IMG/VR virus record: IMGVR_UViG_3300035121_000001 | Location: 1 to 26,468 of that record | Source of the DNA: a virus | Strand: one strand, 5' to 3' | Length of the DNA: 26,468 nt | Shown here: positions 6,971 to 9,668 of the stretch, piece after piece | Layout of the letters: each line of letters opens with the position of its first letter | How positions within the stretch are numbered: position 1 is the stretch's first letter | Translations under genes and position numbers: made by a program | The notes under the pieces: generated by a model | Seen by the model: the letters and a program-made list of their open reading frames with translations, nothing else | What the model was told of the DNA's origin: nothing | Databases searched by the model: none

Positions 6971-7483
6971 ATGGCTAGGCAAGAGCTTACCGCAGAGCGG
7001 CTGCGCGAGGTGCTTCATTACGACCCTGAAACAGGTCTGTTCACTTGGCGCATAGATCGAGGCGGACGAAAAGCCGGGACCGTCGCCGGAAGCGCCCACA
7101 ATGCCGGTTATGTAAGCATTAGGGTATATGGCATCAGGTACCTATCGCACAGACTGGCTGCGCTCTACGTGACCGGGAAATGGCCGGAGCACCAGGTCGA
7201 TCACAAGTACGGAGTACGTAGCGACAACAGGTGGACAGAGCTTAGGCCGGCAACCCATGCACAGAATCAACACAACAAACGCAGCGCGAACAGCAACAAC
7301 AAGGTTGGGTTGCTCGGAGTAAGTGTTAGCAGGGGGCGCTACCTGGCGCAAATCAAAGTTGCAGGAAAGAGAAAGTTCCTGGGCCGTTTCGGCACGCCTG
7401 AGATGTCCCACAATGCATATCTGACGGCCAAGGCGGCCATTCATCCATTTCAAACTCTTGTGGAGAAAACATGTACAAACTGA
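6971..7483 (+). CDS. HNH homing endonuclease with AP2-type DNA-binding domain
   Basis: The protein has 170 residues, with GAGAGGTG upstream of the ATG. Residues 50-102 match the HNH_3 group: HRLAALYVTG, then VDH (H78), SDNRWTELRPAT and QNQHN (N99). Compared with the usual H-N-N set, the central Asn (in the NLR motif) is replaced by Glu90, so activity may be lost or altered. Residues 113-158 (GVSVSRGRYLAQIKVAGKRKFLGRF and following) fit an AP2-like DNA-binding domain. The gene sits alone between the Bbp19-like gene and the scaffold, has lower G+C (30 and 32 of 60 bases in lines 7261 and 7081), and overlaps the scaffold start by 13 bases. It is a free-standing selfish gene. Confidence 0.85.
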   Translation: MARQELTAERLREVLHYDPETGLFTWRIDRGGRKAGTVAGSAHNAGYVSIRVYGIRYLSHRLAALYVTGKWPEHQVDHKYGVRSDNRWTELRPATHAQNQHNKRSANSNNKVGLLGVSVSRGRYLAQIKVAGKRKFLGRFGTPEMSHNAYLTAKAAIHPFQTLVEKTCTN

Positions 7484-8472
7484 AGCGCGGTGTATTCATG
7501 GCCCCGGACGGTGATGGCGGTGGCGGTGCGCCGCCTCCTGCCCCGGCACCAAGCCCAACGCCAGCCCCTGCCCCTGCGCCGGAACCGACTCCGTCGCCCA
7601 GTCCTGCGCCTGCGCCAGGCCCATCACCTTCGCCATCGCCTGCGCCAGCCCCTGTTGACCCACCTGACTTCCGCGCGCGGATGGTCGGCAAGTTGCCGGA
7701 CGGGGCGAGCCCGGCGCAATTGAAGGAGCATGAGGCCAAGATGAACTTGGCGAAGCGGTACACATCTGAAGAGGCTGTGCTGCAGGCCCTGCGGGATGCG
7801 CAACTCAAGTTCACGAGCGGCCAGGTCAAGACCAAGAAGCCAGACAACGCAACCCCCGAGCAATTGAGCGCATGGCGCGCAGAGAACGGCATCCCCGATG
7901 CGCCTGACAAGTATGATTTGAAGCTCGACGCCGGAATGGTGATCAGCAAAGAGGACAAGGCGATGCTGGCGCCGATCCTCACGGCCATGCACGGCGTGGA
8001 CGCCCCACCCGAGGCGGTGTCCGCTGGCGTAAAGGCGTACTTCGACATGCGCGAGCAAGAGATCGTGGCCATGGTCAACGACAACGCCAAGGCCGAGAAG
8101 GAAACCAAAATCCAACTCACGGAGTTGTGGGGCGCGCGGGATACCGCACAGAACTACGACGGCATCAACTTCATGATTCAGCAGGCCGGCCAGGACGTGC
8201 TGCAGGCGCTTCACAACGCAACGGACGTGGACGGCATCAAGATCATGAACAAGCCTGCGGTGCTGACCTTCTTCGCCAAGATGGCGCGCGAAGGCGGGTT
8301 CGTCGGCTCCACGCCCACCGGCGGAGACTTCGGTGCGGCGGCCCAGGGCGACAAAGACCGGCTGACCGAGATGCTTGCCAAGGACCCGGACAAGTATTAC
8401 GCCGACCCGAAGAACGCCGAGCGGCTGCGCGACATACTGGCCGGTGAGCAGCGAAGGGCGGGCAAGAAATGA
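7471..8472 (+). CDS. Scaffolding protein with Pro/Ala-rich N-terminus
   Basis: The protein has 333 residues from the ATG at 7471, chosen because TGTGGAGAAAAC gives it a good ribosome binding site; an ATG at 7498 has a poor one. Residues 20-65 are nearly all Pro, Ala and Ser. From residue 122 the KPDNATPEQLSAWRAENGIP and DAPDKYDL segments match a motif of phage capsid assembly scaffolds. The rest is acidic and helical, ending with a basic tail (EQRRAGKK), the usual capsid-binding end. It would guide procapsid assembly and leave or be lost during packaging. It lies just before the capsid gene, as expected. Confidence 0.85.
   Translation: MYKLKRGVFMAPDGDGGGGAPPPAPAPSPTPAPAPAPEPTPSPSPAPAPGPSPSPSPAPAPVDPPDFRARMVGKLPDGASPAQLKEHEAKMNLAKRYTSEEAVLQALRDAQLKFTSGQVKTKKPDNATPEQLSAWRAENGIPDAPDKYDLKLDAGMVISKEDKAMLAPILTAMHGVDAPPEAVSAGVKAYFDMREQEIVAMVNDNAKAEKETKIQLTELWGARDTAQNYDGINFMIQQAGQDVLQALHNATDVDGIKIMNKPAVLTFFAKMAREGGFVGSTPTGGDFGAAAQGDKDRLTEMLAKDPDKYYADPKNAERLRDILAGEQRRAGKK
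7528..7665 (+). repeat. Low-complexity Pro/Ala/Ser coding tract
   Basis: This C-rich tract of CCN and GCN codons (CCTGCCCC, CCTGCGCCTGCGCCA and similar units) encodes an irregular PAP/PSP repeat of about 46 residues in the scaffold protein. The units are imperfect, so it is a low-complexity region and not an exact tandem repeat. It could vary in length by slippage. Confidence 0.7.
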
Positions 8473-8666
8473 TGACCATCGCGAGGATTCAAGAGCGCAT
8501 GGCCGTGCTTGAAGAGCTTCTGGTCGAGCTGCGCGCCATGATGAACTCCGAAGATTTCCCGTCGTTCCCAGGGCCGGCGCGCGAGTTCATGGGGTATGAG
8601 CACCACTGGTTGGCCAGCGCGCAGAGCGCCATGCAGGACCAGATCAACGCGCGAGGGGGCGTGTAG
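8469..8666 (+). CDS. Small hypothetical protein between scaffold and capsid
   Basis: The product has 65 residues from ATGATG at 8469, overlapping the scaffold stop. A helical first half (RIQERMAVLEELLVELRAMM) looks like a short coiled coil. The second half, FPGPAREFMGYEHHWLASAQ, is less ordered. It could be a minor head assembly factor, but the family is not recognised. Its TAG stop is followed by a 168-base non-coding leader. Confidence 0.55.
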   Translation: MMTIARIQERMAVLEELLVELRAMMNSEDFPSFPGPAREFMGYEHHWLASAQSAMQDQINARGGV

Positions 8667-8834
8667 TAGTTCAGCACGGCGGATGTGCTATTCTTCCGCC
8701 GTGCGAAAGCACGAAGCCGCAAGCGAGGCCCTGACCCCGCGGTGAGCTGGCCCGGCGCAACGCCGTAACCCAGCAACCTGCCAAGTTGGTATCCCGAAGC
8801 GAAGGCAATCCCTTCAATCTTCTGGAGCAATACC
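8667..8834 (+). promoter_or_regulatory. Structured 5' leader of the capsid gene
   Basis: This is the longest non-coding gap in the window (168 bases). It contains: (a) a perfect 10-bp hairpin, GCACGGCGGA 8674-8683 with TCCGCCGTGC 8695-8704; (b) an overlapping, mutually exclusive 5-bp hairpin with a GAAA tetraloop (8700-8713); (c) a long imperfect hairpin, 8739-8781, whose core pairs GCTGG with CCAGC and CGGCG with CGCCG; (d) a 5-bp hairpin, GAAGG 8801-8805 with CCTTC 8811-8815. A GGAG ribosome binding site follows at 8824-8827, then ATG at 8835. No open frame crosses it convincingly. It may stabilise the capsid mRNA, act as a processing site or control translation. Confidence 0.6.
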
Positions 8835-9668
8835 ATGGCAGAGAATGCCGACATCGTTCTATACGACACCGAGATGGTGGGCGCTTTCCAGCGCAAGAAA
8901 TCTCTCCTTCGCCCAACCTGCACGACCCGCGGCATGAACAAGGGCGGCTCGTTCGTCTTTGACGTGTACGGCGACCGCACCGATGCCGCCGTGACCCGCG
9001 GCGCCAACGGCGACATCCCCTACGGCACCACCTCGCAATCGCAGCTCACCCTGACGATGGAAGAGTGGCACGCGCCCAAGGAGAAGAACGGCTTCAACAT
9101 CTTCAAGGGCCAGGCCGACCAGAAGCGCGCGATGCAGGAGGAAGTGGTCTACATCGCCAACCGCAAGATGGATGCGCAGATCATCACGGCGCTGGAAACG
9201 GCAACGGTGGTCAACACGACCGCTGTAGCCGCGACGTACGACTTCGTGATGGCTGCCATCGTGAACCTGGCGCAGAACGATGCGGGCGAGGGCACCATCA
9301 CCGGCGTGATCACCCCGGCCTTCTTCGGTCACCTTGGCAAAATCAAGGAGTTCACCAGCGCCGACTTCACGGACAACAAGATGTTCTCCGCGAAGCCGAT
9401 GGAGCGCACCTTCCGCTGGTGCGGCATCGACTGGATCATCCACACGGGCCTGACTGGCATGGGCACCGCCGCTGAGACGTGCTTCATGTACAACAGCGCC
9501 GCCATCGGTCACGCCCTGGCGGACGGCCACCCGCGGCACTCTGCGGACTACGAGGAAAAGCACGATCGCTCGTGGGCTCGCAGCACGTTCTTCGGTGGCG
9601 CCAAGCTGCTGCAGAACTCCGGAATCATCAAGCTCAAGCACCTCGGTGACGGCTTCGTGATTTCGTAA
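8835..9668 (+). CDS. Major capsid protein
   Basis: The product has 277 residues. It follows the scaffold gene and has its own leader and a GGAG ribosome binding site, as expected for the most abundant virion protein. The N-terminal MVGAFQRKKSLLRPTCTTRG and GGSFVFDVYGDRTDAAVTRG segments, then the helix around EEVVYIANRKMDAQIITALE and the beta-rich C-terminus (FGGAKLLQNSGIIKLKHL), are in line with HK97-fold major capsids of small podoviruses. The call rests on pattern, length and gene order. No frameshifted longer form is visible. It is followed by a decoration-like gene and a terminator. Confidence 0.85.
   Translation: MAENADIVLYDTEMVGAFQRKKSLLRPTCTTRGMNKGGSFVFDVYGDRTDAAVTRGANGDIPYGTTSQSQLTLTMEEWHAPKEKNGFNIFKGQADQKRAMQEEVVYIANRKMDAQIITALETATVVNTTAVAATYDFVMAAIVNLAQNDAGEGTITGVITPAFFGHLGKIKEFTSADFTDNKMFSAKPMERTFRWCGIDWIIHTGLTGMGTAAETCFMYNSAAIGHALADGHPRHSADYEEKHDRSWARSTFFGGAKLLQNSGIIKLKHLGDGFVIS

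Follow-up and report, generated by a model that had tools for sequence, protein, structure and literature searches.

The genes of the window analysed here, a whole IMG/VR virus record of 26,468 bases, are ordered much as in podoviruses, with the large terminase followed by the portal (PF12236), an HNH endonuclease, a scaffold-like protein, a 65-aa ORF, the major capsid protein (MCP) and tail genes. The HNH endonuclease gene (6971-7483), between the portal and scaffold genes, is free-standing and shares bases with the beginning of the scaffold ORF, while the 65-aa ORF (8469-8666), between the scaffold gene and the leader, has no PHROG or Pfam match. The stop of this ORF at 8666 and the MCP start codon, the ATG at 8835, delimit the 168-nt non-coding gap that the first-pass annotation had reported before the capsid gene. 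The stems described within this gap were also recovered: a perfect 10-bp stem (8674-8683/8695-8704), a stem with a GAAA loop (8700-8704/8709-8713) that shares 8700-8704 with the 10-bp stem, a long hairpin (8739-8781) with its core at 8746-8774, and a 5-bp stem (8801-8805/8811-8815) before the Shine-Dalgarno (SD) sequence. The minimum free energy of 8667-8834 was -64.1 kcal/mol, compared with -52.4 ± 3.8 for 200 dinucleotide shuffles, none of which was as low (z -3.05). The promoter zone and the start of the capsid gene contain the following features:

8674-8704, + strand: perfect 10-bp inverted repeat, read from the sequence, whose loop holds the predicted -10 box; putative role
8686-8694, + strand: predicted extended -10, TGcTATTCT (PWM scan, z 2.5), with a weak -35
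8701-8712, + strand: GUGC-GAAA-GCAC hairpin, from the fold and the predicted start; expected mRNA 5′ end
8824-8827, + strand: SD GGAG, with G8824 and G8825 >99% paired in the predicted ensemble
8835-9668, + strand: MCP gene (phrog_3437, Pfam PF19821)

A DNA search found no close relative of the window among known phage records (0 matches), and a protein search of known phages returned remote capsids only; one of these phages, Hodr, has a gap of only 39 nt and no such leader. Relatives were reached via the terminase, the portal and then MCP alignment. At least 564 IMG/VR stretches encode an MCP relative, and the best 80 of these 564 were used. The relatives' MCPs are mostly 33-50% identical, and in most of them a non-coding leader, usually of 120-290 nt and strongly diverged in sequence, lies between the scaffold gene and the MCP. 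In the nearest relatives examined the leader is directly 3′ of the scaffold gene, unlike in the window, where the 65-aa ORF intervenes. The relatives' leaders have in common a sigma70-like promoter, a core with two nested copies of one internal loop, and an SD hairpin. The leader RNA is thus shared within a large group of tailed phages, most of them uncultured.

The internal loop, X, has the form 5′-GG-CC-CC / GG-NYAMC-CC and is asymmetric (5′-CC / 5′-NYAMC). Strand A (GGNYAMCYY) occurred in 94 copies in 62 of 80 leaders, against 4.6 expected from shuffles, with 9 copies in the MCP-coding controls and 1 in the upstream controls. Strand B (GGCCCC) occurred in 60 copies in 50 of the 80 leaders (7.3 expected from shuffles) and was absent from both the coding and the upstream controls. 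A structure-only search, restricted in region and to a 2x5 internal loop between two stems, recovered the loop in 37 of 79 leaders versus 13.7 in shuffles (maximum 18), and the letters CC / NYAMC emerged from it without having been specified. Since both strands recur and the structure-only search recovers the loop, we conclude that the leader contains a repeated internal loop X. Extra copies with reversed strand order were seen by eye in some leaders (e.g. L059 and L030). A MAFFT alignment that was fitted to no structure gave the core order P0-X1-P1-P2-X2-P3, in which the inner module is nested in the outer one. In the window, the corresponding elements are:

8725-8797, + strand: conserved RNA core P0-X1-P1-P2-X2-P3, the best covariance-model match in the window
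8727-8728, + strand: P0 5′ strand GG, SD-like, pairing with CC 8794-8795 (P0 covariation in relatives)
8729-8735, + strand: X1 strand B CC (8729-8730) and P1 5′ strand CUGAC (8731-8735, with 8785-8789), from the alignments
8746-8774, + strand: inner module (structure-only search, covariation, fold), comprising P2 8746-8750/8770-8774, X2 CC 8751-8752 / UAAC 8766-8769, and P3 8753-8757/8761-8765
8785-8799, + strand: switch strand, pairing upstream or with the SD, spacer and AUG, and comprising P1 3′ strand 8785-8789, X1 strand A UAUC 8790-8793, P0 3′ strand 8794-8795, and P4 arm GAAG 8796-8799
8796-8822, + strand: upper P4 hairpin, 8796-8799/8819-8822 and 8801-8805/8811-8815, from the fold

Both X loops are thus present in the window, as CC/UAAC and CC/UAUC, each one nucleotide below the consensus length, and the inner loop appears in the predicted fold. 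Hairpins comparable to upper P4 were found in most of 24 relatives.

The core is supported by covariation. In the MAFFT alignment without the window, 84% of core cells were paired and covariation was 0.345, compared with 0.149 ± 0.015 after shuffling (0/500) and 0.045-0.083 in slid registers; including the window gave 0.348. In an 85-leader alignment, which was fitted to the model and consists partly of loci retrieved by the inner-module pattern, covariation was 0.383 versus 0.144; here the inner P0 pair was GC in 57 leaders, AU in 27 and unpaired in none, and three inner P2 pairs were 100% paired with changes on both sides. When the strands of P0 were swapped between 74 leaders of <60% identity, at two P0 positions, 128 of 148 native cells were paired versus 95.9 ± 3.7 swapped (0/3000, a count that, as in all the swap tests, is not an exact probability because some kinship between the phages is retained), and shifted registers gave no excess. 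The main P0 combinations were GA/UC (22 leaders), GG/CC (21 of the 74 non-redundant leaders, and the type found in the window), CG/CG (8) and AG/CU (5). By duplex energy alone P0 was not significant (z -1.0) because it is short, and the fixed-column test is the decisive one. Support for P1 was weak (z -2.2 with GC matching), and RNAalifold on alignment A3 predicted the inner module only. We regard it as very nearly certain that the leader encodes a real, conserved and covarying RNA. Conservation and compensatory changes in homologous leaders, which the first-pass annotation had named as the check on its structured leader, were thus both found, and its observation stands.

Covariance models were used to assess how specific this RNA is to the capsid leader. 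The best match of model R3, whose training excluded the window, was 8725-8797, rank 1 of 26.5 kb with 16.1 bits and E 0.0065, the next match having 10 bits. The identical place ranked first with model R2 (E 0.045 with filters off), which gave no match in the window with default filters. Because the R2 match is weak and both X loops are one nucleotide short, the window is, on sequence grounds, a divergent member of what we call the capsid-leader X-loop RNA family. Model R1 produced 50 matches at E ≤ 1 in 510 kb searched on both strands; 49 of these, spread over 49 of 71 capsid loci, were coding-strand matches immediately 5′ of the MCP, and the remaining one lay before the coat gene of L158. R3 gave 28 matches at E ≤ 0.01 in 60 untrained loci (420 kb), all at the leader, and whole-record searches mostly returned one strong match per phage, also at the leader. 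Searching Rfam 15 with cmscan yielded nothing at gathering score in the window, nothing up to E 5 in 8600-8900, nothing up to E 0.5 in nine relatives, and tRNA only in nine further loci. RNA motifs published in surveys are generally in Rfam, and in the openly accessible literature searched we came across no account of a conserved RNA preceding phage capsid genes. As far as these comparisons reach, the capsid-leader X-loop RNA is a new family, absent from Rfam 15. A self-cleaving ribozyme was considered and rejected, as there was no Rfam match and the hammerhead core was absent by eye.

The inner module is also found before a different coat family. An IMG/VR search for the inner module combined with another outer stem (GUGG/CCAC) gave 11 matches, of which 5 lay before the same MCP family and 2 were in HMO-2011-type phages. 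In L158 and L230 the module lies 168-173 nt before a P22-type coat gene of a family other than PF19821 (phrog_267 in L158). The inner X module was noted before the HMO-2011-type coat gene in L158 (1350-1376), L230 and L237. Cultured HMO-2011-type phages (HMO-2011, CRP-1, CRP-345, CRP-3 and phiM6) have long coat-gene leaders, several with clear promoters; R2 found no match in the leaders searched among them, and the likeness was seen by eye only. By eye, X-like modules of the form UUAG-CC-hairpin-AUAC-CUAA are visible in the phiM6 and RHph_N3_13 leaders (L224 and L225, upstream of 501); R2 gave no match there, and the outer loop is possibly in reversed strand order.

We also investigated where the capsid mRNA is likely to begin. 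The predicted -10 lies 140 nt before the ATG in the window and often 130-155 nt before it in relatives, and in a PWM scan 38% of the 114 leaders had a sigma70-like promoter (z>2) ahead of the core, compared with 2.6% of MCP-coding controls. Intrinsic terminators separate the scaffold gene from the promoter in some 10 of the 112 relatives, a list that includes one slicing artefact (L028), versus 0.2 in shuffles. Since a promoter precedes the core and terminators lie upstream in some relatives, the capsid mRNA probably starts near 8701. This predicted start would leave most of the 10-bp stem in promoter DNA and put the GAAA hairpin at the mRNA 5′ end. The 10-bp and GAAA stems had been named in the first-pass annotation as the mutually exclusive pair; this assignment is not supported, as the 10-bp stem encloses the predicted extended -10 and most of it is probably absent from transcripts of that promoter. 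Nor are the hairpins it named the conserved element, which is the core described above; the 10-bp stem is lineage-specific. A structured leader with mutually exclusive pairings nevertheless survives, and is both conserved and covarying; the exclusive pairings supported by comparison are P0/P1 (8727-8735 with 8785-8795) versus P4/P5 (8787-8799 with 8819-8835).

Inverted repeats with arms of at least 9 bp were found in the promoter zone of 9 of 114 leaders versus 0.8 expected, and their sequences differ between phages. Long perfect repeats over or beside the predicted promoter are present in L076, L083, L060, L053, L100 and the window (8674-8704), mostly with unrelated sequences. This recurrence with unrelated sequence suggests that the repeats are operator-like dyads; the repeat at 8674-8704 may be one of these or, with upstream transcription, may form a lineage-specific hairpin.

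The switch strand has a second set of partners at the ribosome-binding site. In GC-matched swaps, its flank paired better with its own SD region (P4) than with the SD regions of other phages' leaders (z -7.3, 0/5000, against 1.3 and -1.3 in two controls), and its 5′ part likewise paired with its own spacer and AUG (P5) at z -5.3 (0/5000; control -0.2). GC matching was adopted for these later tests because pairing of the upstream region with the SD, which was meant as a negative control, gave z -3.8 and was probably confounded by base composition. Local folding paired the SD with the switch strand in 58 of 87 leaders, and 11 of 88 leaders, those of P0 type CG/CG, lacked the P4 signal (z -0.9), so that SD occlusion appears to be common but not universal. 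With automatic strand placement, the signal of the P4 arm without the SD was weak (z -2.9 minus the CG-type leaders, -1.6 with all leaders). In the predicted ensemble of the window the start codon lies within a helix. Stretches resembling CTTAACTTTT occur directly before the SD in marine leaders (e.g. L033, L091, L122 and L154) and are reminiscent of the T7 gene 10 translation enhancer.

By sequence comparison, then, the core, P0, P4 and P5 are kept by compensatory changes and share nucleotides. P0 and P4/P5 cannot form together because of this sharing, and since both alternatives covary, the leader is best read as a translational switch whose two pairings exclude each other. One strand pairs exclusively with either the aptamer strand or the SD, with both pairings covarying across relatives, as is expected of a translational riboswitch. 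The capsid mRNA, transcribed from its own sigma70-type promoter, would have the leader as its 5′ untranslated region (UTR), and the core of the leader would form a rod with two nested copies of loop X. The 3′ strand 8785-8799 would have two mutually exclusive partners: in a putative OFF form it would pair with the SD, spacer and start codon (P4 and P5), while in the ON form it would pair with the strand that follows the promoter (P0 and P1), X1 would form and the SD would be free. OFF is the predicted default in the window (-60.5 versus -50.3 kcal/mol), since forcing P0/P1 costs 10 kcal/mol in a nearest-neighbour model that leaves out any special contribution of the X loops. This gap counts against a switch, being large unless the X loops or a ligand contribute. 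A binder of the X loops, which may be a small molecule or a protein of phage or host origin, would favour ON and thereby time or tune capsid synthesis. On balance we think it reasonably probable that the leader is a cis-acting translational switch that times or tunes capsid production.

Could the same structures serve repression by a virion protein? In such autogenous control, a virion protein (capsid, scaffold or another) would bind the X loops and repress translation when in excess, and the ON form would be unneeded. The location at the capsid gene is consistent with this, and the recurrence of one loop at least twice in each leader, in some cases with the strand order reversed, would suit a repeated protein site. 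However, the occurrence of the inner module before the unrelated HMO-2011-type coat family argues against the PF19821 capsid as the sole binder, and the conservation of P0, a competitor of SD pairing, points to activation and not to repression alone; we consider autogenous control unlikely. Somewhat less likely still is that the folded 5′ UTR is a constitutive stabilizer or enhancer that protects the abundant capsid mRNA or fixes its translation rate, the alternative pairings being only folding intermediates, for example because nascent RNA is translated before OFF closes. The GAAA hairpin at the predicted mRNA end, the leader's own promoter and its position before the gene for the most abundant protein would all fit, and the T7 gene 10 leader is a precedent for translation-enhancing capsid leaders. 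On the other hand, the exclusivity of P0 and P4/P5 is under compensatory selection, which a mere stabilizer would not need, and the predicted fold occludes the SD, spacer and AUG. That the locus is a DNA element only, a promoter with an operator dyad and incidental structure downstream, would account for the sigma70-like -10 and the inverted repeats overlapping promoters, but is contradicted by the compensatory changes seen 3′ of the promoter in RNA helices that are tied to the SD, and is highly improbable.

The translational switch that we favour resembles ON-type riboswitches built on an anti-SD and an anti-anti-SD, in that the closing helix P0 of a sensor-like domain competes with the SD for one strand. 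It differs from these in that the leader has no Rfam match, controls a phage capsid gene and carries two internal loops rather than a junction aptamer, any ligand being hypothetical; the repeated X motif is reminiscent of tandem aptamers such as those for glycine. Like the autogenous operators of phages (T4 gene 32, regA targets and the ssRNA-phage coat operator), it is a structured leader over the ribosome-binding site of an abundant protein; its sequence and fold are not known to be related to these, its alternative pairing is more elaborate and any binder is likewise hypothetical. The T7 gene 10 leader similarly has its own promoter, lies directly before the capsid gene and shapes capsid expression; it has been described as a constitutive enhancer and is not known to contain a covarying switch. 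Marine phages are known to carry cis-regulatory glutamine riboswitches that resemble the glnA RNA motif and target the tmRNA gene region (PMC9004378). Both they and the leader are phage cis-regulatory RNAs, whereas the leader targets a capsid gene and is without an Rfam match.

A broader and more tentative proposal, which we hold to be possible rather than probable, is that these leaders form a new class of sensor RNA in large uncultured phage groups, two of which have unrelated coats, and that capsid translation is held off until a signal of infection progress binds the twin loops. The candidate signal may be a virion protein, a host factor or a metabolite, and the RNA may thus act as a checkpoint on capsid production. 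A cis-regulatory RNA that is widespread among phage structural genes, backed by compensatory changes and outside Rfam 15, would be a new orphan-regulator family, and would make testable a neglected question, the post-transcriptional control of the timing and dose of the most abundant protein of dsDNA phages. With short RNAs and reporter fusions, the twin-loop module is open to immediate assay, and it also provides a marker for capsid mRNAs in metatranscriptomes.

The survey of capsid loci also revealed an insert within the MCP gene itself in two distant phages, L011 (7692-8818) and L116 (near 1230-1500), at an identical site directly after the FQTQ/FQIQ codons. Although cmscan at gathering scores assigned no intron family in L011, the insert there is group I intron-like and carries a LAGLIDADG ORF.
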